Below are positions 16,594 through 33,679 of a DNA stretch of 64,000 nt, piece by piece. This DNA is from Desulfocarbo indianensis (GTDB lineage: Bacteria; Desulfobacterota; Desulfarculia; Desulfarculales; Desulfarculaceae). The stretch's first letter is position 1; each line of letters begins with the position of its first letter. The translations under genes were made by a program, and so were the position numbers. The stretch covers positions 124,001 to 188,000 of the forward strand of contig LBMP01000006.1 in assembly GCA_001184205.1 (NCBI GenBank), written 5' to 3'. The notes under the pieces are model-generated. The model searched no databases. It saw only the letters and a list, made by a program, of their open reading frames with translations, and had not been told where the DNA came from.

Positions 16594-17370
16594 CTAAGTG
16601 CCGCCGTCTTCGGTAGAGGGAGATGTCCCGGCATCCGGGTCGGTTGATTTCAGGCGGACCGTGAGCAGGGCCGCGGCTTTGGGGGGCAGCCAGAAACGCA
16701 GATTGCCCGGCGTGGCCACCGCGACGGGGTCCTTTTTAGTCAGGCAGATGGTCTCGGCCGGCTTTACCGCCTCCAGCACCAGCTTGTCGCCGATGACCAG
16801 CCCCATGCCTTTGATGCGCTCCCTGGACCGAGGCCCGCCCAGGATTTTTCCCAGCGCAAACTCCTTGCCGGCGCCAGTGGCGGCGAACTGCATCTTCTGC
16901 CCGCCGCTTTCGCCCCACAGCTTGGCGGCCATGCCGCCGGGCAGGCTGATCCTGCTTTTTCGGTTTACCAGGGTTACGTATTCCATGGAGGGCAGCCTGC
17001 GATCGAACTGGACCGGGTCGTTTTCATGCAAGCCCAAGGTGCGGTAGGTTTCGGCCAAGGCCGAGCCGGGCAGGCAGGTGACGCCCTCCAGGTGCCCCTT
17101 TTCTCCGGGATTCATTTCCATGAGCGGCACGATCCGACCGTCGTCCAGATGCACCACCAGGCCGGCGGCCATGTTGGCGCTCAAGATCACCTCGCCCCAG
17201 GGGCCGCGCAGCCTCACCGGCTGCACCAGGGCCACCTCCTCTTCCAGGCGGATCAGTTCGCGGCCGGGCTCTATGCCCAGCTTGGCCAGTTCCCTGGCCA
17301 GGCCTTCATGGTGCACGCCCACCACCACCAGCGGTTTTCCAATCGGAGCGTCTTTCAGAGAGGTTGTCAT
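16594..17370 (-). CDS. protein made of three FeoA-like domains
   Basis: A 258-residue soluble protein. Three consecutive segments each look like a FeoA/SH3-like domain: about 5-75 (PIGKPLVVVGVHHEGLAREL, KLGIEPGRELIRLEE), about 82-155 (MNPGEKGHLEGVTCLPGSAL, GLHENDPVQF) and about 160-240 (GKEFALGKILGGPRSRERIK, GMGLVIGDKLVLE). Single FeoA proteins of about 75-90 residues modulate FeoB. The triple form is rare in my experience. It begins at the base after the P-type ATPase stop, so it is the last gene of the metal-compartment operon and may gate or dock onto the ATPases or FeoB; this role is inferred. Confidence 0.72.
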   Translation of the reverse strand: MTTSLKDAPIGKPLVVVGVHHEGLARELAKLGIEPGRELIRLEEEVALVQPVRLRGPWGEVILSANMAAGLVVHLDDGRIVPLMEMNPGEKGHLEGVTCLPGSALAETYRTLGLHENDPVQFDRRLPSMEYVTLVNRKSRISLPGGMAAKLWGESGGQKMQFAATGAGKEFALGKILGGPRSRERIKGMGLVIGDKLVLEAVKPAETICLTKKDPVAVATPGNLRFWLPPKAAALLTVRLKSTDPDAGTSPSTEDGGT

Positions 17371-19536
17371 TCAGCAACTTTCCATTGTCAGCCATACGGG
17401 TTTTTCGCCGCTGACCTTGTCCCGCCGCCCATCGGAATCCGACGGCACCCTGGGTTTGGCCAGGCTAGCCCTGGCGGCATAGCCCAGGATGCCCACGGTG
17501 CTCAGGTTATGCAGAATCGCGGAGACCAGAGGGGACAACATTCCCAAGCTGGCCATGGCCAATACCGCGCTGTTCAAGCCTATGGTGGAGACAAAGCAGC
17601 GGTTCAATACTTCCTGGCTCTTTTGGGCGATGGCCCTGGCCGCCACCAGGCCGTTCAGGTCATCCTTCAGCAGAACCACCTTGGCCGACTCCCGGGCCAG
17701 GTCCGCGCCGGCCGGCATGCACACGCCCACATCGGAGGTCACCAGAGCCGGAGCGTCGTTCACGCCGTCGCCCACGAAAGCCACCTTGCCGCCGCCATCC
17801 TGCAGTTCCTTGATGATGCGGGCCTTGTCCTCGGGCCTCAGCTCCCAATGGATGAGGTCCACCGCCTCCAATTCACCGGCCAACCTGCGGGCCGAATCCC
17901 GGTGATCGCCGGTGAGCACCACCAGCTTGCGGACCCCCATCCGCTTCAGGCTTTGCAAAACCCGTGGCGCTTCCGGGCGAAGCTGGTCCTTCAGGGTGAT
18001 GATGCCCTCCAGGTGGTTTTCATGGGCCACGTAGAGGATGGACTTGCCATCGGCCCGCAGGGCGGAGCAGCGCTCCTCGACCTGGGAGCAATCCACCCCT
18101 TCGTCTTCGGCAATGAAATGGTAGCTCCCCACCAGCACCCTTTGGCCGTCCACAAAGGTGGAAACCCCGTGGGCCACCACGAAGTCCACCCGGCTGAGGG
18201 CGGGCAGGACCAAGCCCCGCTTCTGGGCCTCCCTGGTGACCGCCTTGCCCACCGGGTGGCTGTAATGCTCCTCGGCGCTGGCCGCCAGCGCCAAAAGCTG
18301 GTCGGCGCTCATGTCGTCCATGGGGAGCACCTCGTCCACCTGCAAGGCGCCGGTGGTCAGGGTGCCGGTCTTGTCGAAGATGAAGGTGTCGGCCTGGGCA
18401 AAGGCCTCCAGGCCCTGGGCGCCCTTTACGATCACCCCCTGACGGCCGGCGGAGTACATGCTGGTTTTCACCACCACCGGACTGGCCAGTTTCAACACGC
18501 AGGAATAGTCCACCGTAAGGACCGAAGCGGCCCGGCGCAATTGCCGGAAGAGGATCAACTCCCCGGCCGCGATGCCAAGGCTCACCGGAACCAGCCGGTC
18601 GGCCAACTCCGAGATGCGCAGCTCCGGTTCGGACTTTCCCCTGAGGGAGCGCTCCAGAAAACGGTGCATGCGGGCCATGGTGGTGTGGCTACCCACGTTA
18701 CGGGCGTCGATGGTTATGCGGCCTTCCTCCACCACCGCGCCGGAGGCCACCTGGTCGCCGGGCTCCACCTTGTCCGGCACCGACTCGCCGGTGATGGAGC
18801 TTTTGTTGATGAAGGCCTCTCCCTTGGCGACCACGCCGTCCACCGGTATCAACTCGCCCGGCCCGCAGATGACCATGCTGCCGATTTCCAGCTGATCGGC
18901 CGGCATGGCCAGCTCGACGCCGTCCTTCTCCACCCAGACGGTTTCACTCCCCGAGCGCAAGAGGCTTTTCAAGAGTTCGGTGGACTTGTAATCGCTCACC
19001 TGCTCCAGATAGCGGCCCAGGGCCAGCAGGGTGACGATGGCGTTGGCCGTGAAATAATCCCCCCGCCAGAGACTGATGCCCACCGCGCTGGCGTCGAGTA
19101 TCTCCACCTTGAGCCCCCGCTTGATCAGGGTTTCCAGACCTGCCCAGAGGGTGGGGGCGGCCGCGGCCAGGCTGAGCAGGGCGGCCGCCGGGCGCGGCAA
19201 AAGAGGGCTCAATAAAGTTAAGAGACCCAGGGAGACCAATCTGGCCGGGTCCACCTCTCTTGCCGGCTCCAGCTGGGGCAGATAGGCCTCCCTGGGGATG
19301 TGGTTCAAAAGGTGCAGGCAGCTTTGCCTGGTTTTTTTCTCTCCGTCATAGTGGATCACGATGCTGGCGGCGTTGCTGTTTACGCGCACCTCCCGCACGC
19401 CGGGCATGGCCAAGAGCATGGCTCTCAGGTATTCGCGATCCAGGGCGGGATCGGCCGCCCTGGCGTAGCGCAGCCTCATCCGTCCCGGTATCTCGTGCAG
19501 CACCCGCACGCGGTTTGCGCTTTTCTCGTCTGACAA
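17371..19536 (-). CDS. P-type metal ATPase 1 (P1B-6/FezB-like) with SC-x6-P membrane motif
   Basis: A 721-residue P-type ATPase. The N-terminal ~85 residues form an HMA-like domain without CxxC but with HEIPGRMRLRY (14-24). A-domain SSITGESVPD with intact TGES (249-252); membrane metal motif YSCVLKLASP (344-353) in place of CPC; phosphorylation site DKTGT (388-392); N-domain HYSHPVG; hinge GDGVNDAP. The P1B-6 group with an Arg-rich N-terminus includes FezB, needed for ferrosome formation; I assign by resemblance. No gap to the genes on either side (triple FeoA protein after, two-helix peptide before). Probable role: moving iron, or another divalent metal, across an inner or organelle membrane. 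Confidence 0.83.
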   Translation of the reverse strand: MSDEKSANRVRVLHEIPGRMRLRYARAADPALDREYLRAMLLAMPGVREVRVNSNAASIVIHYDGEKKTRQSCLHLLNHIPREAYLPQLEPAREVDPARLVSLGLLTLLSPLLPRPAAALLSLAAAAPTLWAGLETLIKRGLKVEILDASAVGISLWRGDYFTANAIVTLLALGRYLEQVSDYKSTELLKSLLRSGSETVWVEKDGVELAMPADQLEIGSMVICGPGELIPVDGVVAKGEAFINKSSITGESVPDKVEPGDQVASGAVVEEGRITIDARNVGSHTTMARMHRFLERSLRGKSEPELRISELADRLVPVSLGIAAGELILFRQLRRAASVLTVDYSCVLKLASPVVVKTSMYSAGRQGVIVKGAQGLEAFAQADTFIFDKTGTLTTGALQVDEVLPMDDMSADQLLALAASAEEHYSHPVGKAVTREAQKRGLVLPALSRVDFVVAHGVSTFVDGQRVLVGSYHFIAEDEGVDCSQVEERCSALRADGKSILYVAHENHLEGIITLKDQLRPEAPRVLQSLKRMGVRKLVVLTGDHRDSARRLAGELEAVDLIHWELRPEDKARIIKELQDGGGKVAFVGDGVNDAPALVTSDVGVCMPAGADLARESAKVVLLKDDLNGLVAARAIAQKSQEVLNRCFVSTIGLNSAVLAMASLGMLSPLVSAILHNLSTVGILGYAARASLAKPRVPSDSDGRRDKVSGEKPVWLTMESC

Positions 19537-19791
19537 TTAAGCGCTCCGGACCCCGGTTCCATACAGGGAGTAATGCCACAGGGAAAAACCCACCAAGCTT
19601 AAACCGGATAACACGTGCAGGGTCCTCACCGTCCGGGAGCGGTTGCCCCCCAGGCCCTCCATGATGCCGGTCGCGGCCAGGACCCCCAGGGAGGCGGTCA
19701 TGCCGGTTTTAGCCAGCGAGCGCTTCCTCCGCAGATCGCCGGCCCGCTGAGCGGGCGCGGCGAGCGAGGCTTGGGATCTGTTCCTAGGCAT
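19537..19791 (-). CDS. 84-residue two-helix membrane peptide with paired histidines
   Basis: Two hydrophobic helices (about 31-48 and 56-78) after a basic N-terminus. The second helix reads HVLSGLSLVGFSLWHYSLY, with His59 and His73 14 residues apart; the DUF4405 protein at 12766-13635 has the same HVLS...H pattern and spacing. This suggests a miniature haem-binding relative. It overlaps the upstream gene by eight bases and abuts the ATPase gene, so it is certainly part of the same transcript. A role as electron carrier or ferric reductase for iron loading is an inference. Confidence 0.68.
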   Translation of the reverse strand: MPRNRSQASLAAPAQRAGDLRRKRSLAKTGMTASLGVLAATGIMEGLGGNRSRTVRTLHVLSGLSLVGFSLWHYSLYGTGVRSA

Positions 19792-20170
19792 CAGCGGGCT
19801 CCTCTTTGGCCGAAGCCTTCATCTCTTGCTTGTAATGCAACTCAGCCTTGATGTCGTTGATCTGCTCTTTTACTTCCTCTATGCCGTACTGCAGGCCCGA
19901 CCAGGCCTTGGCCAGGCCCTTGAGCACGGTTTTCTGCACCTTGGGGTTGGCCACCAAAAGCGTGACGCCGGCGGCCAGAAGCAAGCCCTTCAGGTATTGC
20001 GGGTTCTGGAAATCAAACCAGCCCGAGGTGAAGGACTGAGGCGCGCTCTGGTAGCCCTGGGCATAGTATGAATAGTAGGGGTCTTGGGGGTTGGCCTGGG
20101 CCGCCCCGCCATAGAACTGCGGATACTGGCTCTGATAGGCGTAGTAGTTTTGGTATGGATCATGACTCAT
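19784..20170 (-). CDS. Tyr/Gln-rich single-span membrane protein, YtxH-like tail
   Basis: A 128-residue protein with AAGGAG before the ATG. Residues 1-55 are rich in Tyr, Gln, Ser and Pro and look disordered. One membrane helix follows (YLKGLLLAAGVTLLVANP, 59-76), then an amphipathic, charged helix (EEVKEQINDIKAEL) like YtxH proteins. The segment K-G-x3-[GA]-A-x3-LL-[IV]-x2-P is shared with the Gly/Pro/Gln-rich protein encoded two genes upstream. No family function is known; a membrane-shaping or content-organising part of a metal compartment is my inference. Confidence 0.7.
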   Translation of the reverse strand: MSHDPYQNYYAYQSQYPQFYGGAAQANPQDPYYSYYAQGYQSAPQSFTSGWFDFQNPQYLKGLLLAAGVTLLVANPKVQKTVLKGLAKAWSGLQYGIEEVKEQINDIKAELHYKQEMKASAKEEPADA

Positions 20171-20217: not shown

Positions 20218-20640
20218 TTACTTCTTGGTGGACTTTTTGGGCTTGGCGGCCTTGGGAGCCTCCGCCGCCTCGGCCTGGCCAGTGGCGACCAGTTCCCGCG
20301 AGGAACTATCGGTGGCCGAGTTCCAAAGGTATTTCACTCCGGTGGCCACCCCGAACATGGCCACCAGCGAAAGCGCTCCGCCCAGGCCCAGCGCCCCCGC
20401 CACCGCCGCGCCGGCGGCGGTGGAGAGTCCGGAGCCGGCGGCCTCCTTCAGCACCTCGCGGGTGGCTTGGACGCCGGACATCCGGTTGCCTCTCACCTCG
20501 GGGATTGCCTTGGCGGCGGCGGCGGCTCCGCCCACCAGGGCGCCGACGACGCCCAGATTAAGGCTGGCTCTGGAAACCAGCCCGGCGGTCTGGCCGCTAT
20601 AGGTTCTCACGCCGGTTTGATAATTATAGTAGTTGGACAT
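20218..20640 (-). CDS. MamC/Mms13-like Gly/Ala-rich membrane protein
   Basis: A 140-residue protein from ATG 20640 (ribosome site AGGAGG). After a Tyr-rich start, LNLGVVGALVGGAAAAAKAI (27-46) and AGALGLGGALSLVAMFGVAT (81-100) form two Gly/Ala-rich helices around an amphipathic loop; GVKYLWNSAT and a Lys-rich tail follow. From memory the magnetosome protein MamC has VGVLGALVGGAAALAKN, a KETVGAGLAT-like loop and AAKYAWD in the same order and spacing, so homology looks real. MamC lines magnetosomes and influences magnetite growth through its lumenal loop. Here no other mam genes are seen; the neighbours are P-type ATPases and low-complexity membrane proteins, which suggests another iron compartment. 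Confidence 0.78.
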   Translation of the reverse strand: MSNYYNYQTGVRTYSGQTAGLVSRASLNLGVVGALVGGAAAAAKAIPEVRGNRMSGVQATREVLKEAAGSGLSTAAGAAVAGALGLGGALSLVAMFGVATGVKYLWNSATDSSSRELVATGQAEAAEAPKAAKPKKSTKK

Positions 20641-20641
20641 A

Positions 20642-21661
20642 TTAAACCTCCTCGCCCGTCTCCGGGGCGTTTGCATGCTCCTTGTCGCCCTTGCCGGTCA
20701 ACCCGGAAAACAGGCCGGAAATGGTCTCCGAGACCAAGGGGCTGGAAATCAAGAGCGCCAGGGCCGCGCCCATTACGGCGCCTTTCCAGAACCTGGCATC
20801 CAGGCTTCCCAGCCAACCGGCCATCTTGGACATTTCCGCCTTGCCGTTGATCACGTCCTCGAACATGCCCATTAAGTCGCCGAACTGGCCGGCCTGCTGA
20901 AAAGGCGCCTGGGCGTTGGGGAAGGGCATGCCGCCAAAGCCGGGATGGCCGCCGAAATTCATGCTGGGCCCTTGTCCGGGGAAGTGGCCGGGCATGGGAC
21001 CGGCGCCTTGACCAGGGAATGGGCCGGGCATGGGACCGGCGCCTTGTCCGGGGAAAGGACCAGGCATGGGACCGGGGCCTTGTCCGGGGAACTGGCCGAA
21101 CATGTTGGCTGCCTTGGCGCCGTCATGGTTGCAAACGTGGCCCATGCCCGGAACCTGGCCTGCCGGCCCGCCGGGATGAGGCGGCTGATTCGTGGCGGGC
21201 TGGCCCATCTGGGGTCCGCCCCAACCGCCGGGTTGCGCGGGCTGAGGGAACTGGGGAGCGCCCCAGCCGCCGCCCTGGGGAGCGTTGGGGGCCTGGTGGC
21301 CGCCAAAGGAAGCGGCGGGCTGGCCCATGGCCGGTTGGCCGTAGCCGCCCATGGCTTGCGCGGGCTGGGCCTCGCCGCAACCGCAAGAGGCCTTTTCCAT
21401 GCCGCCCCCGCCGTTGCCGCCCGCCACCGGGCCTTGGGGGGCCATATTGGCCGGTCCCTGCTGTTGATACTGGTTGGCGGCGGTATAGCCGCCCTCGGCT
21501 TGCGGGCCGGCCATGCTTTGGGCCTGACCCCAGGCCGCCTGGGCTTCCGGAGCCGGGCCGCCCTGGCCCTGACCCTGGCCGCCCTGGCTCTGGCCGGCCT
21601 CGTTGCCTTTGGCGCAAGATTCCTGGCCAGCCGGCATGTTTTGCTGATCGAATTGCGACAT
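20642..21661 (-). CDS. Gly/Pro/Gln-rich repeat protein with one membrane helix
   Basis: A 339-residue protein. Residues 1-250 are low-complexity (Gly, Pro, Gln, Ala, Met), with isolated Cys/His spots (ESCAKG, KASCGCGE, GHVCNHDGA) and a 12-residue tandem repeat FPGQGAGPMPGP (191-232). Residues 291-312 hold a single helix (FWKGAVMGAALALLISSPLV) with the K-G-x3-[GA]-A-x3-LL-[IV]-x2-P pattern also found in the 128-residue protein downstream. The Cys/His spots might bind metal. The design, a long disordered arm on a membrane anchor, suits a scaffold or lining of a compartment; that is inference. It has no known family. Confidence 0.75.
   Translation of the reverse strand: MSQFDQQNMPAGQESCAKGNEAGQSQGGQGQGQGGPAPEAQAAWGQAQSMAGPQAEGGYTAANQYQQQGPANMAPQGPVAGGNGGGGMEKASCGCGEAQPAQAMGGYGQPAMGQPAASFGGHQAPNAPQGGGWGAPQFPQPAQPGGWGGPQMGQPATNQPPHPGGPAGQVPGMGHVCNHDGAKAANMFGQFPGQGPGPMPGPFPGQGAGPMPGPFPGQGAGPMPGHFPGQGPSMNFGGHPGFGGMPFPNAQAPFQQAGQFGDLMGMFEDVINGKAEMSKMAGWLGSLDARFWKGAVMGAALALLISSPLVSETISGLFSGLTGKGDKEHANAPETGEEV
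20966..21091. repeat. 36-bp tandem repeats coding FPGQG[AP]GPMPG[PH]
   Basis: Three full 36-bp units and a half unit, in frame within the Gly/Pro/Gln-rich gene, encode residues 191-232. Units differ by a few substitutions. In-frame repeats like these can change copy number without breaking the gene. Confidence 0.85.
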
Positions 21662-21683: not shown

Positions 21684-22019
21684 CTAAATCTTGAGGCCTA
21701 ATGATTGGGCCACCCGTCCGCTAAGTTCCTCGATCCTCGCGGCGTCGCGGCTGGTGAAAAGTTCGCTTATCACCTCGGGCGCCAGAAGATCGGGATCATA
21801 ATCAATGATCAAGGAGCCTGCCGCGGCGTTGAGCCTGGTGTTTATGATGGCGGCGGCTCCATCGCCGTTGCCCCAGGAGCTTAAATCCACCGAACGGGCC
21901 AGCTTGATGGCCATGATATCGCCGAACAGGCCGGGTTTCAGTTTCAGGCGGATCCTGCCCGGTATGTGGTGGGCCACCGCCAGGTAATCCCTCAGTTTCA
22001 ACAAAATTGCTGCATCCAT
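21684..22019 (-). CDS. stand-alone HMA-like domain with PGRIR motif
   Basis: A 111-residue soluble protein. HHIPGRIRLKLKPG (17-30) matches the N-termini of both neighbouring ATPases, and the rest follows a beta-alpha-beta ferredoxin-like pattern (INTRLNAAAGSLIIDYDPDL resembles the NS/TNxxxxSLxVxY strand of the ATPase N-domains). The CxxC metal site of classical HMA domains is absent. First gene of the scaffold block; 22 bases separate it from the repeat protein. It may act as an exchangeable partner or regulator of the ATPases; this is inferred. Confidence 0.7.
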   Translation of the reverse strand: MDAAILLKLRDYLAVAHHIPGRIRLKLKPGLFGDIMAIKLARSVDLSSWGNGDGAAAIINTRLNAAAGSLIIDYDPDLLAPEVISELFTSRDAARIEELSGRVAQSLGLKI

Positions 22020-22095: not shown

Positions 22096-24471
22096 TCACG
22101 GTTGTGGCGTCGGCGACCGGCCGACAACGGCCCCCCCTGGGGAACTCTCCGCTCCGCTGACTGCGGTCAGGAATCCTCTCCTGGCAGCGGCGCGGCCGGC
22201 CGAGGGAGTTTTTCCCGCGTCGTGGTTTGGCGTTGCTGCCTCAGTCTGTCCGGTCAAGAAACCGGCCGGCTCCCCGCGCTCCAGGGCGGGAGCCCGATAA
22301 CTCAGAAGCCGGGAAGAGTTGGCCAGGATTCCCAGGGTGTGGGCAATGTGCAGGAAACCGGCGGCCAGAGGGGAGAGCAGGCCCAAAGCGCCCAGGGCCA
22401 TGCCGGCCAGGTTGGAGCCGGTGGCTATCCAGAAGTTCTGCTGCACCACCCGCATGGTGGAGCGGCTCAGGCTGCGCAGGTAGACGATGCCTTCCAGGTT
22501 GTCGTCCACCAGGGCGATGTCCGCCGCCTCGATGGCCACCTCCGATCCGCCGGCGCCCATGGCGATGCCCACCTGGGCCTCGGTAAGGGCAAAGGCGTCG
22601 TTGATGCCGTCGCCCACCATGAGCACCCGCCTGCCGGGCTCCTTCAGGCCGGCCACGATCCTGGCCTTGTCCTCGGGCAGCACCGAGCAATGGAACTCGT
22701 CCATGCCCAGCTCGAGGGCCAGGCCTTGCGCGGTGCGCCGCTCCTCGCCGGTGATCATCACCAGGCGCGCCACGCCGTCCTCGCTCAGGTAACGCATTAC
22801 CTTTTTCGCCTCGGGCCTGATCGTGTTGGCGAAGCCCAGAACGCCCAGCATCTCGCCGGAAAGGGCCAGGAAAGCCACGGCCAGGCCCTGTTTTTCCATG
22901 GCGCGGGCCTTCTCACCGGCCTGGCCCAGAGGGATGCGGTGGCGTCTCATGAAGCGCCGGTTGCCCACGTAGATGCTTTTGCCGTTCAAGCGGGCGGTGA
23001 CGCCCTCGCCCAGTTGGTATTGGCAGACCACGTGGCCGGTGGGGCGCAGGCCCTTGCGGGCGGCTTCGTTTTTGATGGCCATGGCCAGGGGGTGATAGTT
23101 GTGCATCTCGGCGGTGCAGGCCAGCTCCAGGAGATGATCGTCGTCCAGGTCGGAAAGGTTGTTGATCTCCCTGAGGGCCGGCATGCTCATGGAAAGGGTG
23201 CCGGTCTTATCAAAACAAACCACGTCGGTTTCGCCCACCTCTTCCAGGTAGCGGCCGCCCTTGATGAGGATTCTGCGTCGGGCGGCGGCGTTCAGGGCCG
23301 CGCTGATGGGCGCCGAGGCGGAAAGCACCGTGGCGCAGGGGCAGGCCATGACCAGAAGCACGGTGAAGGCCCGCCAGAAGCTGGCCGTGACAAGCAAGGT
23401 GCCCAGGGTGAGCGCGCCGCCCAGCTTGAGCAGGCGCAGCGCCAGGCGGTCCGCCGCTCCCTGGACGGGGGCTTGGTTTTCCTGGGCCATCTCCACCAGG
23501 TGGAACACCCTGGCCAGATAGGTGTCGTCGCCCACCTTTTGGGCGCGCACGAAGATGACGCCTTCGCGCACCAGGGTGCCGGCCAATACGGCGTCGCCCT
23601 TTTGGCGCAGGACGAATTCCGAAACGCCGTTGATGGGCGATTCGTCCACCATGGCCTTGCCGCTCTCCACCACGCCGTCCACCGAAATTTTTTCATCGGT
23701 GTGCAGCACCACCAAGTCCCCCGGCCGGACCCGCTCCACCGGCACCTCGACCTCCTGGCCGTCCAGGCTGATGAAGGTGTTCTTGCCGGTCACTTGCAGT
23801 ATCTCGGAGATGGCTCTGCGCGAACGCCGGCTGATCCAGCTTTTGAGGAACTCGGCCCCGCTGTCTATCCAGAGCACTTCCAGCGCGGTGAGGGCCTCGC
23901 CCATGCCCACCGCGGTCAATATGCTGGCGGCCAGGAAGCCGTCCAGGCCGAAACGCCGCTCGCGCAGATCCTGGAAGGATTTCTTGAACAGGGGATAGGT
24001 CGCCACGGCGGCCAGGATGCCCAGAGGGCTGAAGAGGGTCTGCCGCACCGGGAGCTTCAACACGAAGCTGCGCACGAACACGCCGATCATAACCAGGGAA
24101 AGCCCGGCGAAACGAAGCGCGGCCCGGCGCACCGAGCGGTCATCGTCAGCAGCGGGCCGGCACGACGGGCAGGCCCCATCGGGCCGGCAGGGCGCGCAGG
24201 CCGGCGCAGCAGCTTCCGGCGGCGCGCAAAGAGACAAAAGGCGCTCTAAAAGCGTCAGTATTTGTTTCTCGCCGGTCTTGGCCGGCAGGTAGCCCACCGC
24301 CAGGCTGGCGCAGGTCTCATTCGTCCTGACCCAGATCACGCCCTCGTTATCCAGAAGCTCCTGACGCAGGGCCTCGGCCAGCCGGTAATTTCTTCTCAGC
24401 GCCGGCATCTTGTAGCGCACCCGGCCGGGAAGCGAGTGCAGCTTTTTTATTTTGTCGGTTTTTTTGCTCAT
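22096..24471 (-). CDS. P-type metal ATPase 2 with CPC motif but altered TGES
   Basis: A 791-residue P-type ATPase. N-terminal HSLPGRVRYKM (12-22) starts an HMA-like domain; a linker holds five Cys (82, 92, 95, 101, 104). The membrane metal motif is ACPCATVLSAS (CPC 377-379), phosphorylation site DKTGT (421-425), N-domain YHPLAMA, hinge GDGINDA. Oddly the actuator loop reads DESPINGVSEFV: the usual TGES is NGVS (281-284), losing the Glu needed for dephosphorylation in well-studied pumps. The C-terminal ~70 residues are Pro/Ala-rich and disordered-looking. Sits at the head of the scaffold block. It may be slow, regulatory or differently wired. CPC points to a soft metal, or iron in ferrosome-type enzymes. 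Confidence 0.83.
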   Translation of the reverse strand: MSKKTDKIKKLHSLPGRVRYKMPALRRNYRLAEALRQELLDNEGVIWVRTNETCASLAVGYLPAKTGEKQILTLLERLLSLCAPPEAAAPACAPCRPDGACPSCRPAADDDRSVRRAALRFAGLSLVMIGVFVRSFVLKLPVRQTLFSPLGILAAVATYPLFKKSFQDLRERRFGLDGFLAASILTAVGMGEALTALEVLWIDSGAEFLKSWISRRSRRAISEILQVTGKNTFISLDGQEVEVPVERVRPGDLVVLHTDEKISVDGVVESGKAMVDESPINGVSEFVLRQKGDAVLAGTLVREGVIFVRAQKVGDDTYLARVFHLVEMAQENQAPVQGAADRLALRLLKLGGALTLGTLLVTASFWRAFTVLLVMACPCATVLSASAPISAALNAAARRRILIKGGRYLEEVGETDVVCFDKTGTLSMSMPALREINNLSDLDDDHLLELACTAEMHNYHPLAMAIKNEAARKGLRPTGHVVCQYQLGEGVTARLNGKSIYVGNRRFMRRHRIPLGQAGEKARAMEKQGLAVAFLALSGEMLGVLGFANTIRPEAKKVMRYLSEDGVARLVMITGEERRTAQGLALELGMDEFHCSVLPEDKARIVAGLKEPGRRVLMVGDGINDAFALTEAQVGIAMGAGGSEVAIEAADIALVDDNLEGIVYLRSLSRSTMRVVQQNFWIATGSNLAGMALGALGLLSPLAAGFLHIAHTLGILANSSRLLSYRAPALERGEPAGFLTGQTEAATPNHDAGKTPSAGRAAARRGFLTAVSGAESSPGGAVVGRSPTPQP

Positions 24472-24566: not shown

Positions 24567-25427
24567 TTAGTGCGAAGACGACTTGGTCCTTTTGGGTTGG
24601 TTGTCGATCTGGAACACCAGGGTGGCGGTGTTCTTCAAATGAAGGCAGTGCTCCTTTTCCGGGCCGGTCGGCTCGGTCTTTATGTAGTAGCGCACGAACC
24701 AGCGGCCGGGACGGGGGATGAATATCTTAAGCGTGGATCCCGTGGTCTTGGCCCTGGGATAGAAATTGTCCTCTGATTCGGTGGAGAAGCCGTTATAGGT
24801 GGCGTCCCAATGGGCTTCGCCCTCATAGGGCTTTCCGTCGAAGTAAACCTGCAGCTCCAGGGTGTCGCCCGCTTTAAGCTGGGTGATGTCGCTGGTGGGC
24901 ACCAGCTCCAGTCTTTGGCCGATGCGGGCCGGGAACTTCTCGGAAGGAGCCTGGCAGACCACGTAGGTCTTGGTGAACTGCTTGCTGTGCAGGCTGGTGG
25001 TGATCTCTTTGGCGTTTTCCATGACGGCGCTTTTGGGTTTGACCGCGTGACGGTCGCGCCCCTTCTTGTCTATGTAGATGGTGTAGTAGCCGGGATTGGT
25101 TTCGGCGGAGAGCACGTAGGTGCCCGGCTCTTGGTAGGGCACCATGTAGGATTGCAGGCCGGTTTCCTGGCGGATGGTCATTTTTTCCACCTTTCCGCTG
25201 GGCGTCAGAACTTCCACCGATTTCAGCTTTTTGCCCCGAACCCCGTCATCCACTGGAATGTGGTGCCCATAGCAGAAAAACAGGGGAGCCTGCTTGCCCA
25301 CATTCACCTTGTAGCGGCTGGACTGGATATATAGTGAGTGGGCGTGACAAACCGAGGGCGCCGAAGCCAAGGACAGGGCAAGGCTTAAACCGAACAGCAA
25401 GTAAAACGAGTTCTTGAACTTTTTCAT
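24567..25427 (-). CDS. periplasmic DUF4198-type protein
   Basis: A 286-residue secreted protein from ATG 25427 (RBS AAGGAT), signal peptide about 1-30 (LASAPSVCHA). The mature part begins HSLYIQSSRYKVNVGKQAPL, includes FCYGHHIPVDDGVR with a His pair, and has an all-beta DUF4198-like pattern with a second domain near LKAGDTLELQVYFDGKP. DUF4198 proteins are often encoded near nickel, cobalt or iron transporters and TonB systems and are thought to bind metal. Its neighbours are an ABC exporter set upstream and ATPase 2 downstream. A second DUF4198-like protein is at 29516-30340. Confidence 0.72.
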   Translation of the reverse strand: MKKFKNSFYLLFGLSLALSLASAPSVCHAHSLYIQSSRYKVNVGKQAPLFFCYGHHIPVDDGVRGKKLKSVEVLTPSGKVEKMTIRQETGLQSYMVPYQEPGTYVLSAETNPGYYTIYIDKKGRDRHAVKPKSAVMENAKEITTSLHSKQFTKTYVVCQAPSEKFPARIGQRLELVPTSDITQLKAGDTLELQVYFDGKPYEGEAHWDATYNGFSTESEDNFYPRAKTTGSTLKIFIPRPGRWFVRYYIKTEPTGPEKEHCLHLKNTATLVFQIDNQPKRTKSSSH

Positions 25428-25473
25428 GACATCAATCCTTTTGAGTTGGTTTGGCAAAACCACATCAGGCCCT

Positions 25474-26745
25474 TCACTCCTCCAGAGGCAGCACCGTCAC
25501 CGCGATCAGGCCGTATGCCCCCGTAAGCAGGACCACCAGGCCGTCGGCCCAAATGCCCGTGCCGCCACTCCTGCGGCGCAGGGCATAGACCAGGAACAGC
25601 GCCGCGGCCCAGGCCAGGGCAATCAGCGAGTGGGTGCCCCAGCCTTTGAGCTGGAACGCGAAATAGCCCGAGTTGGGGTCTTCCAGGTCTATGCGGAAAG
25701 GCGCCAGGTAGCTGAACACGCTTTGGGCGGGGGTAAGCTCCGCGCCGGGCATGGTGTGTTGATAGCTCACCAGGGGGCGGTAGTCCTTGTCCAGGACCAC
25801 GGCCCGGATAATCTTGTCGTCGGAATACACCGCCGTGCGGTACAGGGGGTTTATGATCAGCTTGAAATCCATGCCATCGGGGTCGTATCCCTCGAGGGGA
25901 AGGGGTGTCAGCCGGTAATTGTCGGAGGAAAGCAGAAAGAGCCGATCATCATTGCTCAGCAGCAGGGCGCGGAACTCCTTGCGCCTGTTTTCCGAAACCT
26001 TGATGGACCTGACTCCCAGCGCCGGATCAATGGGCGTTTTCACCACCCAGGGCTCGCCCTTCACCCTTTTCAGATGAAAGACGGCTCCGCTGGCATCCAC
26101 CAGAAAAAACCCGTTGTCAAACGGCTTCAGGATGGTGTTGTTGCCGGCGGCCAAGCGAAGCGGAAAGGCCACGCCCGCTTTTTTGAGCGCCTGGTTGAAT
26201 TTGCGGCTCAGTTCCTGATCCGGACGGTTGAAATCAGCGTTGATGAACTCCAGTCCGCCCGCCAGGCGGAAGCGTTCTTCGGGAAACGCCAAACGCGCGG
26301 CGTCCGGCTGGGATTCCAGGAGCGGATACACCTGTTCGTCCGGCGAGCGCCCGGCGATCTGTTTGGGCTTCAGCTCCACCACCTGCCGGTCGGCTCTTAT
26401 GGCCTCTTTGTCAAAAGATGCGCCGTCTATCTTCAGCGGCAAAAGCCCCCACAGCTCCATGTTCTTGTAATAGATGAAGGGAAGCAGCTTTTCGAATTCT
26501 TGCCTGGTGTAGCGCTTGCCGTCTTGATCCATCTGCACGAACTGGGCGTGGTGCACCTCTTCCAGGCTTTCCTCGGCGGGCCGCAGCAGCTTGTCGCGCC
26601 AGATGAACTTCTTGCTAACCGGGCTGTAGAAGAGATGGGTTTTGGGGACCCGCTCGCCAAAGGACATATCGAAGAGCATGGGCAGGTAGACGGCCATGAC
26701 TATTACGGCGGGCAGGATGAGAGCGTAGCGGGCCAGATGAAGCAC
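25474..26745 (-). CDS. membrane-anchored protein, DUF4857-like, of an ABC exporter set
   Basis: A 423-residue protein with one helix at 7-27, a large extracytoplasmic region (about 30-365) of beta-rich sequence with repeated strand-turn units (FLVDASGAVFHLKRV, LLLSNDDRLFLLSS), and two helices at the C-terminus (around 372-420). It resembles DUF4857 proteins that accompany ABC transporters, an assignment I hold only loosely. Three bases separate it from the permease gene, so the two are translated together. Confidence 0.6.
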   Translation of the reverse strand: MLHLARYALILPAVIVMAVYLPMLFDMSFGERVPKTHLFYSPVSKKFIWRDKLLRPAEESLEEVHHAQFVQMDQDGKRYTRQEFEKLLPFIYYKNMELWGLLPLKIDGASFDKEAIRADRQVVELKPKQIAGRSPDEQVYPLLESQPDAARLAFPEERFRLAGGLEFINADFNRPDQELSRKFNQALKKAGVAFPLRLAAGNNTILKPFDNGFFLVDASGAVFHLKRVKGEPWVVKTPIDPALGVRSIKVSENRRKEFRALLLSNDDRLFLLSSDNYRLTPLPLEGYDPDGMDFKLIINPLYRTAVYSDDKIIRAVVLDKDYRPLVSYQHTMPGAELTPAQSVFSYLAPFRIDLEDPNSGYFAFQLKGWGTHSLIALAWAAALFLVYALRRRSGGTGIWADGLVVLLTGAYGLIAVTVLPLEE

Positions 26746-26748
26746 GGC

Positions 26749-27417
26749 CTAGTCCTTCCTGTAGCGGAACCGGTAGGCCGGGAGCAGCACCGAGGGGGTG
26801 AAGGCCAGCACCAGGATGAAAAGCAGCGGCAAGATGCGCTGGTAGGCACCGGGAGCCCCCTGGTGCAGGAAAAGGCCGGTAAGGCCAAGCGAAACAGCCA
26901 GATTGAAGACCCGCAGGCGCCAGCCGGGCTCCAGCAGCACCAGGGCGGCGCCAAGATAGGCAGTGAGCCCGGCCAGCAGCCAGGGCAGGGCGGTGGCGAG
27001 GGTGACGGCCACCACCTCGGCCGGGAAATAGAGGCTGGTCATCGCCGCCAAGGCCAGCAGGTCCGCGGCCAGGATCAGCACCACCGCGCCGAGCCCCACC
27101 AGCACATGGCCCAGCACTATCAGATGGGGCGCCAGGGGCAGGTGCAGGGAAATGCGGAAGCGGTGGTTTTTCATCTCGGGCAGAAACTGGGCCACGGCCA
27201 TGAACAGGCCGGTGATGACCGGCAGGTACATGAAGGGATCATAGAAGGTTTGGCCCAGGTGGATCACCCGGTACCAGACGACTTCGGCGTGGTCCAGCGC
27301 GAACAGCTTGCGTAGCGCCACCAGGACATAGCCCGCCACGCAGAGGTTCAAGGCCAGGCCGGCCAGCCAGAAGGCCTTCAGCTTGGTGTATTCCTTTAGA
27401 AGTATGGACCTGAACAA
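26749..27417 (-). CDS. ABC transporter permease-like membrane protein
   Basis: A 222-residue protein with six predicted helices and the N-terminal ILLKEYTKLKAFWLAG typical of ABC-2-type permeases. Lies eight bases after the ATPase gene and three before the DUF4857-like gene. The set probably forms an exporter or membrane-remodelling complex. Its substrate is unknown; the location between feo genes and the metal ATPases suggests a part in the same metal system. Confidence 0.7.
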   Translation of the reverse strand: MFRSILLKEYTKLKAFWLAGLALNLCVAGYVLVALRKLFALDHAEVVWYRVIHLGQTFYDPFMYLPVITGLFMAVAQFLPEMKNHRFRISLHLPLAPHLIVLGHVLVGLGAVVLILAADLLALAAMTSLYFPAEVVAVTLATALPWLLAGLTAYLGAALVLLEPGWRLRVFNLAVSLGLTGLFLHQGAPGAYQRILPLLFILVLAFTPSVLLPAYRFRYRKD

Positions 27418-27425
27418 GGCTGCTC

Positions 27426-28313
27426 CTAATATCTGCCGGTGAAGCCGATGAAGGCGTCCTCGAAACTCATGGGCCGGATCTCAAGCTTTTGGCTGGCAAA
27501 GCCCTGTTCGGCGAGGCAGCGGCCCACGGCTTCCGGTCCCTCGAAGGAATACAGCAGGTATTCGTCCCTGGACTCCTCCACGTTCTTGATGGCCGCGCCC
27601 CTGCGGGGAGTCTTGACGCCGTTGTCTTTGGGAAGGCAATACTGCCTGAAGCCGCGCAGAAAGCTTTCCAGGGGCATCTGGGTGGCCAGGCCGCCCTTTT
27701 CCAGAAAAATGACCTCGTCCACGAATCTTTCCAGGTCCTGCACGATGTGCGAGGTGACCAGCACCGTCTTGTCGCCCTCGGCCAGGTATTCGGCCAGATA
27801 ATCCAGAAAGAGCCTGCGGTAGCCGGCGTCCAGGCCCATGGTGTAATCGTCCAGGATCATCAGATCCGGCTGCTGGGCCATGATGAGCCCCAGCACCACC
27901 TGGGAGCGCTGGCCCTCGGACATGTTGCCTATCTTGTGGCTGCCGGGCAGCCCGAGCTTGTCGGTGAGGCCGTAGTAGAGCTCCGGCTGCCATTGGGGGT
28001 AGAAGGACGCGAAGAAGCGCTCGACGCTCTCGATGCTCATGAACTCGTAGGCCAGGTGGCCTTCGAACAAAAGCCCCACCCGGCGGCGGGTCTCGGGCGA
28101 TAGATTGTGGGATTCATCGCCCAGGATGCGGCAGGCGCCTCCGGCGGGGCGCAGGAATCCCATGAGTATTTTGATGAGGGTGGTTTTGCCCACGCCGTTC
28201 TTGCCCAGAAGAGCGAAGACTTTCCCCCGGGGAACCTTGAAATTCAGATCCCGGTAGATCACCCGCTTGCCGTAGCTGTGCCTCAGGCCGTCAACCTCTA
28301 TGGCGAATTCCAT
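27426..28313 (-). CDS. ABC transporter ATP-binding protein with Asp in place of catalytic Glu
   Basis: A 295-residue ATPase. Walker A GKNGVGKTT (37-45) is normal; the signature is NMSEGQRSQ instead of LSGGQ; Walker B is LMILDDYTMGLD, where the usual E-P after the Walker B Asp is D-Y (156-157); the H-loop TSHIVQD is present. Asp can partly replace the Glu, with slower hydrolysis. The C-terminal ~75 residues are an extra domain. The start codon overlaps the stop of the GGDEF gene (TGATG), showing translational coupling. Confidence 0.85.
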   Translation of the reverse strand: MEFAIEVDGLRHSYGKRVIYRDLNFKVPRGKVFALLGKNGVGKTTLIKILMGFLRPAGGACRILGDESHNLSPETRRRVGLLFEGHLAYEFMSIESVERFFASFYPQWQPELYYGLTDKLGLPGSHKIGNMSEGQRSQVVLGLIMAQQPDLMILDDYTMGLDAGYRRLFLDYLAEYLAEGDKTVLVTSHIVQDLERFVDEVIFLEKGGLATQMPLESFLRGFRQYCLPKDNGVKTPRRGAAIKNVEESRDEYLLYSFEGPEAVGRCLAEQGFASQKLEIRPMSFEDAFIGFTGRY

Positions 28314-29515: not shown

Positions 29516-30340
29516 TTACTTTTTCATGTCCACGGCCTTGAACCAGATGACCGCGTCCTGGGAAAGTTCCTTGCCGTTGGCCTCCTTGTCCGGGCCGCTG
29601 CCCAGGGCGCAAATGCCCCACCAGCCGGCATGGGGGATGCCCACGGTGAATTCGCCGTTGGCGTTGGTCTTGATGCCCATGGTCACGAAGCTGTCGTGGG
29701 GAGCTTCGGTGATGCCTTCCTTTTGGAAGCTATTCTTGCCGGCCTCAGGCGGATGGTTCATGAACTCCACTTCCAGGTCCGCGTTGGGCACCGGTTTGCC
29801 GTTGGAAAGGACCACCCCGCGGAACACGCCGCCGGTCCAGTTGGCATAGGGCTTGTCCAAAGGCACGATCTCGGTGGGGAGCCCGACCGGTTCGGCCCAG
29901 TTGCCGGGCATGCCGCCCACGTTGGCCACCACCTTGGTGATCTGCTGAATGTAGATGCCCTCTTCCTTTTCCAGGTAGGGACCGGGCACCAGCACGAACA
30001 CGTAGTCGCCCATGGAGCGCACGACCTTTTTGGGCAGCTTGGCCTCGTAGGCCGCGCCGGAGTTGGTGAGGCTGGTCCAGGTGATTTTCTTCAGGTAGGA
30101 CATCAGGTCGGTTTTTTGGGGCTTGCCCTCTTCACCCCGCTGGCTCACCACGTAGAACTCCTTCACCGGCGCCATGTCCATGGTGTGGCCGGCCTCGAAG
30201 GGATGGGTGAACACGAGCTTCAGGTCAAGCTCCTTGCCTTCGCTCATGGCGATTTCGGGGGTATAGATCATTTGAAAATGCGCCAGGGCCGGAGAGGCCA
30301 CGAAAAGCGCCAGGGCCACAGCCATCAAAAGCCGTTTCAT
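29516..30340 (-). CDS. periplasmic DUF4198-type metal-associated protein
   Basis: A 274-residue secreted protein from ATG 30340 (ribosome site GGAG), signal peptide about 1-20 (LFVASPALA), mature start HFQMIYTPEIAMSEG. The His right after the cleavage site, FTHPFEAGHTMDM and the later GIKTNANGEFTVGIPHAGWW are features of DUF4198 proteins, some of which bind nickel or cobalt for uptake. In this place, behind feoAB and a Cys-rich FeoB partner, iron is the simpler guess. Longer in-frame extension upstream is without ribosome site. Confidence 0.78.
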   Translation of the reverse strand: MKRLLMAVALALFVASPALAHFQMIYTPEIAMSEGKELDLKLVFTHPFEAGHTMDMAPVKEFYVVSQRGEEGKPQKTDLMSYLKKITWTSLTNSGAAYEAKLPKKVVRSMGDYVFVLVPGPYLEKEEGIYIQQITKVVANVGGMPGNWAEPVGLPTEIVPLDKPYANWTGGVFRGVVLSNGKPVPNADLEVEFMNHPPEAGKNSFQKEGITEAPHDSFVTMGIKTNANGEFTVGIPHAGWWGICALGSGPDKEANGKELSQDAVIWFKAVDMKK

Positions 30341-30436
30341 GCTTCGCTCCTTTTTCCGCTCGTTATCGTTATCCTTGCTACCAACTGGCTGGAGCGGTCC
30401 CCCAACGGCCCGAGGGCCCATGAGCCGCCCCCCTCG

Positions 30437-30757
30437 TTACTGAACGATGTCAGCCCCTTTGATTTCGATCACATGGCCCTCGCCGGCGTCGAACACCACC
30501 ATGTAATCGCCCGCGGGCTTTTTGAACTCAAAGTCGCTGTTTCCCGACATCTTGCCTTCGATGAGGACCTTGCCGGAGCCGTCCTTGACCATCATGCGCA
30601 CCCCAGAGGCAGAGGAACCGTCCGAGAATCCGCCTTCGCAGGTTACGGTTCCGTCGCCGTTGTCAAAGCACGAGCAAACCGGGGTGTGGGCAAAGGCCGC
30701 GGTGGCGGCGAAAAGCAAGGCGCAGGCAAAGCCCAGCATCATCATGGTTCTCTTCAT
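30437..30757 (-). CDS. small secreted protein of the feo operon
   Basis: A 106-residue protein with ribosome site AAAGGAG and signal peptide about 1-23 (ATAAFA). The mature part begins HTPVCSCFDNGDGTVTCEGG, with a His at the N-terminus and three Cys, followed by a short beta-sandwich like sequence (GVRMMVKDGSGKVLIEG, GDYMVVFDAGEG). No named family is known to me. The free N-terminal His and Cys-x-Cys could hold a metal in the periplasm, and the gene lies between the FeoB-associated peptide and a DUF4198 gene, so it may deliver or scavenge iron. Confidence 0.72.
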   Translation of the reverse strand: MKRTMMMLGFACALLFAATAAFAHTPVCSCFDNGDGTVTCEGGFSDGSSASGVRMMVKDGSGKVLIEGKMSGNSDFEFKKPAGDYMVVFDAGEGHVIEIKGADIVQ

Positions 30758-30873: not shown

Positions 30874-31125
30874 TCAGTTAGGGCGGGTGGGATCGTTCGT
30901 CTTGCCCGAGCCGTTGCCGCCGGCGGCGGGCGGCGTTTTACGCTCCGGCCCGGCCGGGGGCTCTCCGCCCCCCGCGCAGCAGGGCGGGGAGGAGTTTTTC
31001 AGATCGCCGCAGGCGCAGCCCCCTCCGCAGGAGCAGCTATTGGAGGAACCTTTGTTGGGCCGGAATTTTTTCCACACGTAGTACACGGCCCAGGCGAAGA
31101 TGGCGGCTACGATCACATATTCCAT
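30874..31125 (-). CDS. FeoB-associated Cys-rich membrane protein
   Basis: An 83-residue protein with AGGAGG before the ATG: one N-terminal helix (YVIVAAIFAWAVYYVWKKF), then a Cys-rich run (NSCSCGGGCACG and PPCCAGGG) and a Gly/Pro-rich tail. This is the layout of the small FeoB-associated Cys-rich family, encoded next to feoB in many anaerobes. The Cys cluster might bind Fe(II) or a cluster as iron leaves FeoB. It starts nine bases after the feoB stop. Confidence 0.85.
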   Translation of the reverse strand: MEYVIVAAIFAWAVYYVWKKFRPNKGSSNSCSCGGGCACGDLKNSSPPCCAGGGEPPAGPERKTPPAAGGNGSGKTNDPTRPN

Positions 31126-31134
31126 GTCGCCCTC

Positions 31135-33645
31135 CTACGTTTGCTCCACATAGGTCGGCTGGGGGTGTTTCATGAGGGGATCGGGGATAAAGGCCAACCC
31201 CGCGGCCAGGGCAAGCGCCAAGACGTAAAACACCTTCATGGCCTCCACTCCGCTGAGCCCCAAAGCGCCGCCCAGGGTGTAGACCGCGCTGGCGGTGACG
31301 AGCCCCAAGACGGTGGGGAAGATGATGGAAAAGAACATCCATTTATAGGAGGCGGTCTGGACCTTCACCATGATGGTGGTGGCCAGGCAGGGCGGGTAGA
31401 GCGCGAAGAAGATGATGATGGCCAGCGCCCCCAGGGGCGTGCGGCCGCCGCTCTTGCCTTCGGCTTCCATGCGGCTCTCCAGGGTGGCGCCCTCGTCGGC
31501 CTTTTCCTGGAAAAGAGCGCCCAGGGTGGCCACCGAGGATTCCCGGGCCGCGAAGCTGCTGATCAGGGCTATGTTCACCTTCCAGTCGAAGCCGGCGAAC
31601 TGGGTGACCGGCTCCAAAGCTCTCCCCACCCGGCCGAAGAAGCTGGTCTCGATTTTTTCGCCCCTGATCTCGCGGCGGATGGTTTTTCTGGTCTTGGAGA
31701 GATTCCTCAGCAGGCCGGTGATCTTTTTGGCTGCCTTGTCCTTGCTGCGGGCGATGAGGGGATAAAGTTCGGGATAAGCCGCCTGGTACTCGCCATCCAC
31801 CGAGCTGGCACCGGTGCCGGCCGCCATCTTGGCCGCGCGGTAGCCGTCGTAAAGCAGGAGCAGCTTTTCCAGATTTTCGCCTTCCCAATACTTTTGATAG
31901 GCTTCGCCGCCCGCTTTGGCCGCCTTGACCCTGAAGTCGGCCATGGACTTTTCCATGCGTCCGGTGTAGTTCAGCATGCTTTCATCAGGGATGCCCGGGA
32001 ATTGCAGCAGAATGAAGACGCACACCGAAACCGCCACCACGATGGTTCCCACCTTCTTGATGTATTGCCAGGTGCGCTCGTAGGCCCTCTGCAGCACGCC
32101 CTTGACGGTGGGCGTGTGATAGGCGGGCATTTCCATGACAAAGGGGGCGGTCTCCTTGCCGCGCAATACGAAGTAGGTGAGCACCTTGGCGATGATGAGC
32201 GCCATGATGATGGTTATGGTGGAGATAAAAAACAGGGCCCATGATTTGTCGGCCGCGAAATATATGTTGATCAAAAGGATGTAGAGCGGGGCCTTGGCCA
32301 GGCAGTTCATGTAGGGCACCGTCAGGATGGTGGCCAGGCGCGAGCGCTCGTCCGGGATGCCCTTGGTGGCCATGACCCCCGGCACCGCGCAGCCTCCGGC
32401 GAACACCCCCCCCAGGATGAAGGGCAGGGTGGATTGCCCGTGCAGGCCGAAGCTGTGGAAGATGCGATCCAGGATAAAGGCGATGCGCGCCATGTAGCCG
32501 GAGTCTTCCAGCACGGCGATGAGCATGAAAAGGATGAAGAAGATGGGCACGTAGTTCAAAAGGGTGTTGGCGCTGTCCACCATCCACAGGACCAGAGAGC
32601 GCAGCAGGGAGTCCTCCAGCAGCTCGGGAGGAGGCAGGAGGGAGCTGACCGCCTCCCGCAGCCAGGCCAGCACGGGCCAGGTGTATTCGGTCAGCTTGTA
32701 ACCCTGGACGATTGATATCTCATAAATGAGGTAAACCGAGAGCACCAGCACAAAGGGGGCCAGCACGCGGTTCAGCACCACCCGGTCCACCTTTTCGGAA
32801 ATCGATACCCCGTTCTCTTTTTCCCGGGTCAGGCAGGCCTTGACCATGCGGGCAGCCAGCCGATCCCGGCAGATCACGATATGGTCGGCCGGGCTGTGGT
32901 TGGTTCCCTCCTCAAAGGACTGGATCATGGTTTGCACCATCTGACGCAGGTTGACGGCGTCCGGATGGGTGGCGTCCAGGATGCGGAAGGCCTCTTCGTC
33001 GCCCTCCAAGAGCTTCACCGCCAGCCAACGGGGTGGCGCGGTGATGGCCAGGTTGGTGTGTTCGGCGAGCTTCTTTTCGAGCATCCCGATGTGGGGCTCC
33101 AGTTCCTCGTAGGCGATCAGGTTCTTGGGGCCGGAGGCTTTTGCCTCCGCGGCCTGCCTGACGGCCTTTTGCAGGTCGGCCTTGCCGTGACCCTTGCGCC
33201 CCACCATGGGCACCACCGTAACGCCCAGGGACGATTCCAGGCGCTTCACATCGACCTTTTGGCCGGTGGACTCGGCGATATCCATCATGTTGCAGGCCAG
33301 CACCACGGGAAGGCCCATCTCCATGAGCTGGAAGGTGAGGTAAAGGCTCCTTTTGAGCTGGGAGGCGTCAACTACGTTGATCACCACGTCCGGCTTCTCG
33401 CCCAAGAGGAAATCCCTGGCGACCCGCTCTTCCAGGGAGAATGACGTCAGGCTATAGGTGCCGGGCAGGTCCACAACCTCCACCCGGCCCTGGGCGTCCC
33501 GGTAGGCGCCGCTCTTTTTGTCTACGGTGACTCCGGGGTAGTTGGCGATGTGCTGGTTGGCTCCGGTGAGCAGATTGAATATGGTGGATTTGCCTGCGTT
33601 CTGCTGCCCGGCCAGACCCACCAGAAGGGATTTTCTTGCTGCCAT
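31135..33645 (-). CDS. feoB: ferrous iron transporter FeoB, long form
   Basis: An 836-residue FeoB from ATG 33645; an in-frame TTG at 33654 is the alternative. G domain: GQQNAGKST (13-21), DLPGTYSLTSFSLEERVARD, NMMDI. The membrane part includes VLEDSGYMARIAFILDRIFH, GCAVPGVMATK, and FAARESSVATLGALF. A soluble insertion of about 100 residues (around LLLLYDGYRAAKMA and ITGLLRNLSKTRKTI) sits before the second Gate region, a feature of the long FeoB type in anaerobes. It differs from the FeoB at 6.7 kb and is in operon with feoA, a Cys-rich partner and periplasmic proteins, so it is probably the main Fe(II) importer for the island. Confidence 0.95.
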   Translation of the reverse strand: MAARKSLLVGLAGQQNAGKSTIFNLLTGANQHIANYPGVTVDKKSGAYRDAQGRVEVVDLPGTYSLTSFSLEERVARDFLLGEKPDVVINVVDASQLKRSLYLTFQLMEMGLPVVLACNMMDIAESTGQKVDVKRLESSLGVTVVPMVGRKGHGKADLQKAVRQAAEAKASGPKNLIAYEELEPHIGMLEKKLAEHTNLAITAPPRWLAVKLLEGDEEAFRILDATHPDAVNLRQMVQTMIQSFEEGTNHSPADHIVICRDRLAARMVKACLTREKENGVSISEKVDRVVLNRVLAPFVLVLSVYLIYEISIVQGYKLTEYTWPVLAWLREAVSSLLPPPELLEDSLLRSLVLWMVDSANTLLNYVPIFFILFMLIAVLEDSGYMARIAFILDRIFHSFGLHGQSTLPFILGGVFAGGCAVPGVMATKGIPDERSRLATILTVPYMNCLAKAPLYILLINIYFAADKSWALFFISTITIIMALIIAKVLTYFVLRGKETAPFVMEMPAYHTPTVKGVLQRAYERTWQYIKKVGTIVVAVSVCVFILLQFPGIPDESMLNYTGRMEKSMADFRVKAAKAGGEAYQKYWEGENLEKLLLLYDGYRAAKMAAGTGASSVDGEYQAAYPELYPLIARSKDKAAKKITGLLRNLSKTRKTIRREIRGEKIETSFFGRVGRALEPVTQFAGFDWKVNIALISSFAARESSVATLGALFQEKADEGATLESRMEAEGKSGGRTPLGALAIIIFFALYPPCLATTIMVKVQTASYKWMFFSIIFPTVLGLVTASAVYTLGGALGLSGVEAMKVFYVLALALAAGLAFIPDPLMKHPQPTYVEQT

Positions 33646-33679
33646 GACACCCAATGCCGAGTTAAAGTGGGGAACAAGC

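Follow-up and report, generated by a model that had tools for sequence, protein, structure and literature searches.

An ATPase with an altered actuator loop

The window analysed here, a 64,000-nucleotide stretch of Desulfocarbo indianensis DNA, carries a P1B-type ATPase gene, ATPase 2 (22096..24471, minus strand), whose 791-aa product is without the TGE glutamate of the actuator (A) domain. The protein begins with an HMA_2-like domain (24226..24447) that contains HxxPGRxR, has no CxxC and is arranged as beta-alpha-beta-beta-alpha in the model. This is followed by a Cys-rich linker (24160..24228) with cysteines at positions 82, 92, 95, 101 and 104. As a preliminary description of this DNA had stated, the TM4 metal motif (C377-P378-C379; 23335..23343), the phosphorylation motif (D421-K-T-G-T; 23197..23211) and the GDGxND motif (GDGINDA; 22594..22614) are intact. 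H460-P is also present, HP and CPC being found in 41/41 members of the clade described below, and TM6 carries H708-x-x-H711 (22339..22350). All of these features lie on the minus strand. No plasmid match was found.

ATPase 2 scores 478 bits against TIGR01525 (heavy-metal P-type ATPase), passing the cut-off of 346. Its AlphaFold2 model (pLDDT 86, pTM 0.78) has its best fold matches among P1B ATPases (7qbz, Z 34.8; HMA4, Z 31.9; CopA, Z 31.4; ZntA, 4umv, Z 29.7). Together the profile score, the CPx and HP motifs and the whole-chain fold identify ATPase 2 as a P1B-type heavy-metal ATPase.

The TGE glutamate is regarded as indispensable to P-type ATPase turnover. In ATPase 2 this hallmark of canonical cycling is replaced by V283. 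The actuator loop, DESPINGVSEFV, includes the degenerate TGES at codons N281-G282-V283-S284 (23620..23631, minus strand), with E285 next (23617-23619). HMMER aligns the loop gap-free with 'vdesmiSGEP' of a CopA (3j08) and with 'vdesmvTGEP' of 3rfu, a copper efflux ATPase, and V283 therefore occupies the catalytic Glu position. Misalignment of the loop was rejected on the strength of this gap-free alignment to solved structures and of 121 controls. The window copy also has G259 changed to D, and reads T-G-E576 in place of TGD (22744..22752, minus strand). Within the clade D576E is confined to the window copy; D stands there in 98% of the clade and in 100% of the 121 others.

Loss of the glutamate throughout the ATPase 2 clade

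We defined the clade of ATPase 2 from profile searches as 41 sequences including the window copy, taking the score gap as its border: members score at least 773 bits, and the other sequences of that set at most 627. The comparison set comprised 121 other P1B homologues from many phyla. The TGE glutamate is present in 0/41 clade members versus 121/121 non-clade homologues, a contrast that rules out chance. The earlier reading of T-G-E-S as N-G-V-S is confirmed. A 42nd member found later has the loop SGRAD, so that the glutamate is missing in 42/42 known members, spread over ~12 families that all belong to the window's phylum. In a tree of 127 sequences the branch setting the 41 members apart has an SH-aLRT value of 100; the clade is monophyletic and lies close to that of the partner ATPase.

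The residue at the Glu position is R in 37 of the 41 members, C in two, Q in one and V in the window copy. Conservation of NGVS, which the preliminary description had proposed to inspect, thus holds for the loss of Glu across the clade and fails for V, which is limited to the window copy and is mostly R elsewhere. Since the nearest relatives, in the window's own family, read NGRAE, the N is a family trait and the V is the window copy's own.

Close pairs within the clade have dN/dS values of 0.04-0.33, as does the partner gene to a similar degree, and the clade is under purifying selection. We examined 31 columns whose conservation in ordinary P1B ATPases reaches 97% or more. Wholesale losses in the clade fall at E283, at P386 (after CPC in TM4), at D549, which becomes N, and at L179, which becomes F. 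Columns of the phosphorylation half (DKTGT, HP, GxG, TGD, PxxK, GDGxND) are 93-100% conserved in the clade. C377, C379, H708 and H711 form a metal-site signature peculiar to the clade and are invariant in all 41 members, and the H711 site holds S in 84/121 others; H708 and H711 together with CPC are likely to be the metal ligands of ATPase 2, a putative assignment made from these patterns.

The window copy has V rather than R, plus D576E, and on its own could be taken for a sequencing error, a strain-specific mutation or a decaying gene. The earlier claim that the frame is genuine is upheld by the 791-aa open frame and by the absence of the glutamate from the whole clade. A sequencing slip or strain-specific change was rejected, as the homologues also lack the glutamate in open frames, and a decaying pseudogene was rejected by the dN/dS of relatives, which are under purifying selection. 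We consider the probability of any such artefact negligible. Given that the whole clade lacks the glutamate, and that its iron-cluster setting beside a complete pump is conserved, the loss is an old and maintained feature.

The clade was not found in 299 genomes of a betaproteobacterium's phylum or in 95 genomes of a Rokubacterium's phylum, in searches that scored a few best candidates per genome. Known member G617 was missed in this way, and since few candidates were scored these negatives are not proof of absence. Among 299 genomes of the Clostridioides mangenotii phylum, six matches scored 668-691 bits, which puts them inside the score gap and below every clade member, and 6/6 keep TGES. 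Among the matches listed in a contig scan, all were ordinary TGE ATPases, and these served as controls. As a separate observation, L206, L208 and L211 from the phylum of Clostridioides are related HMA_2-type ATPases with TGES and DKTGT in which GEGINDS replaces GDGxND, a mirror-image change in another catalytic motif.

The linker had been described as Cys-rich and unusual. Its five cysteines are confirmed, whereas such linkers are common in the cluster-associated members. CxxC occurs in only 15/40 members, so Cys-richness is common but follows no single fixed motif.

An acid displaced by two residues

Two residues beyond the lost glutamate, E or D is present in 37/41 clade members versus 0/121 other P1B ATPases (Fisher p ~2e-32, ancestry ignored). 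The clade loop follows the pattern TGR[A/S][E/D]; the window copy reads NGVSE, its acid being E285. The exceptions carry V, Q, Q and M at this position (L027, L028, L034 and L033, respectively), with no fixed alternative acid. The +2 acid, although not universal, is the strongest hint in these alignments that the loop may have been re-engineered rather than merely broken. A fixed salt bridge between the Arg and the displaced acid was rejected as not strict: R occurs without the acid in L027, L033 and L034, and the acid without R in the window copy, L031 and L032.

The partner ATPase

ATPase 1 (17371..19536, minus strand) is a partner P1B ATPase with TGES and a DYSCV motif in TM4, a P1B-6/FezB-like combination. 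The preliminary description gave it a normal TGES and took this to suggest a working pump. The TGES is confirmed; the metal site is unusual, DYSCVLK standing where the CPC motif is expected, and its clade has D[YF]SC(A/V/T). All ATPase 1 homologues have TGE and nearly all have D[YF]SC in TM4. Because ATPase 1 is without CPC and ATPase 2 without TGE, neither ATPase is fully classical.

The proposed pairing of ATPase 2 with a TGES-bearing neighbour proved to be conserved, with a complete partner ATPase in 32/37 ATPase 2 neighbourhoods. Four of the five neighbourhoods without one lie near contig ends. L141 has no partner within ~8 kb, and in L135 the adjoining ATPase is a different TGE-bearing P1B ATPase. 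Among 199 genomes of one order, ATPase 2 occurs in 26 and ATPase 1 in 26/26 of those, a co-occurrence confounded by shared ancestry. Two genomes appeared to have ATPase 1 only; one carries ATPase 2, and the contig of the other ends too soon.

In four lineages ATPase 1 is missing, and within ~1.6 kb of ATPase 2 lies a P2-type ATPase that bears TGES and has an N-terminus of HMA_2-like type. These ~1000-aa P2-type (PEGL) proteins lie beside the ATPase 2 homologue in four other families (L138, 4231-7431; L142, 3218-6280; L143, 3995-7123; L144, 4651-7674). Eight clusters have a further ATPase-1-like gene, mostly with the AC-type TM4 variant. In L176, L178-L181, L183, L184 and L192 a third, ATPase-1-related ATPase, mostly D[FY]AC, follows the FeoA gene.

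The iron gene cluster

Between the two ATPase genes, on the same minus strand, are five syntenic genes. Next to ATPase 2 is a small HMA_2-like protein of 111 aa (21684..22019), followed by a G/P/Q-rich protein whose C-terminus holds a conserved hydrophobic segment (20642..21661). In relatives the length of this protein varies widely (186-442 aa), and a C-terminal FWKGA...LTNxxV segment is conserved. A MamC-like protein (20218..20676) scores 54.3 bits (E=1.3e-14) against NF038051, below the equivalog cut-off of 100 bits, and by this score is MamC-related without being an equivalog. The remaining two are a 128-aa protein with one hydrophobic segment (19784..20170) and an 84-aa, DUF4405/FezC-like protein with two hydrophobic segments and invariant H59 and H73 (19537..19791). 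DUF4405 matches 18/21 homologues of the latter (best E 3.6e-5); the window copy on its own reaches only E=0.27. A FeoA-domain protein (16594..17370, minus strand) is the final gene of the block.

The order ATPase 2 - HMA_2 - G/P/Q-rich - MamC-like - 128-aa - 84-aa - ATPase 1 - FeoA recurs in 27 neighbourhoods, some of the small genes being undetected in places, and the block often adjoins FeoB, DUF4198 and GGDEF genes. In the window the same island contains the ferrous iron transporter FeoB (31135..33654, minus strand) with a Cys-rich FeoB-associated protein (30874-31125). It also contains two DUF4198 proteins (24567-25463 and 29516-30421, minus strand), the second of which travels with FeoB in other genomes together with a 106-aa protein (30437-30757). 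The stretch between the ATPase and Feo blocks (25474-28313, minus strand) encodes an ABC transporter ATPase along with a DUF4857 protein and a likely membrane protein. No classical Fur box was found within the window.

P1B-6 ATPases carry an SCA-type motif. Their listed substrate is Fe(II) (PMC7558416). In ferrosomes, FezB is a putative ferrous iron transporter and FezC a DUF4405-like dimeric haem protein (PMC11334425). The operon may therefore be a ferrosome-type (fez-like) iron cluster; the resemblance in gene content is good but indirect, FezB and FezC being known by description.

Interpretation of the altered loop

These data allow us to propose, tentatively and with a probability of about 0.45, that ATPase 2 is a functional non-classical P1B metal ATPase with altered dephosphorylation and a partner role in iron handling. 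ATPase 2 would bind metal and ATP and form the aspartyl-phosphate, and hydrolysis of its E2P state would be slow, or controlled by a switch other than the usual one, so that the enzyme would dwell in the phosphorylated state. Together with the complete partner pump it could act as a gating, regulatory or alternating subunit in the loading of iron into a membrane-bound store, a role other than that of a fast efflux pump. The preliminary description went further in speaking of a pump trapped in the phosphorylated state and of a slow or sensing partner; these statements were extrapolated from mutants of other pumps and are only partly supported. A bolder form of the proposal strikes us as rather unlikely: the A-domain phosphatase would be permanently rewired (TGE to TGR[A/S][E/D]), and a long-lived phosphoenzyme would be an obligate switch or gate for the partner P1B-6 iron pump in an iron-storage organelle, both ATPases forming one complementary transport unit.

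The displaced acid suggests another explanation, in which E285 or its counterpart activates the water for dephosphorylation; ATPase 2 would then cycle as an ordinary pump, its loop having been re-engineered. Consistent with this, the +2 acid occurs in most of the clade and in none of the 121 others, the window copy retains it though the Arg is gone, and the phosphorylation motifs are intact. The four members without a +2 acid or any fixed substitute speak against it, and where the loop is tight, a side chain two residues further on would probably face another way; we know of no E2P structure of such a loop. We regard a relocated acid as possible but doubtful. The loss of three near-invariant residues (E283, P386 and D549), to which the window copy adds D576E, would also fit a scaffold that has ceased to cycle and whose sole role is the binding of metal or partner proteins, as would the conserved pairing with a complete ATPase. 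However, there is hardly any variation in DKTGT, GDGxND, HP, GxG or the Lys of PxxK, sites of a kind usually lost in pure scaffolds, and the dN/dS of ATPase 2 resembles that of the partner pump, making a scaffold improbable.

The losses in the two ATPases are complementary, ATPase 1 having TGES without CPC and ATPase 2 CPC without TGE, and the two are strongly co-inherited. This could indicate a heterodimer in which one ATPase supplies the glutamate in trans and completes the cycle of the other. In known P-type ATPases, however, the A domain works in cis, and the L141 homologue lies without a partner within ~8 kb, so that we hold this arrangement to be very improbable.

A natural clade in which the glutamate is completely gone while the phosphorylation half and the metal signature persist offers a direct test of three possibilities: that the glutamate is essential, that it can move by two residues, or that a partner pump makes it dispensable. 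Should the cluster prove to be of the ferrosome kind, a second ATPase, itself conserved, would also enter a young field whose iron-loading mechanism is unsettled.

Comparison with known systems

ATPase 2 shares its fold, CPC, DKTGT, HP and GDGxND with the P1B-1, P1B-2 and P1B-4 ATPases (CopA, ZntA, 7qbz). Unlike these, it has no TGE glutamate, has P386 and D549 replaced, and carries an extra invariant H711 in TM6 and an HMA_2-like N-terminus without CxxC. The ER Mg2+ ATPase ERMA/TMEM94 likewise has a P-type fold without TGES and is reported to be functional (PMC13322241). In contrast to the ATPase 2 clade, which keeps GDGxND and the N-domain motifs, its GDGxND loop is missing too and its nucleotide pocket is occluded, and it is a eukaryotic protein of a different subfamily.

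Together with its TGES motif, the A domain forms a phosphatase built into the pump, and in KdpB with a phosphorylated TGES serine the loop serves as a device of regulatory inhibition, which is its likeness to ATPase 2 (PMC10654040). KdpB keeps the glutamate, blocked by serine phosphorylation, whereas in ATPase 2 it is permanently missing. The window's cluster resembles fez clusters in the D[YF]SC of its ATPase 1 clade, the DUF4405/FezC-like neighbour and the surrounding iron genes. The fez operons of Grant et al. 2022 and Pi et al. 2023 reportedly have one P1B-6 ATPase; the cluster described here differs in adding a second ATPase, without TGE.
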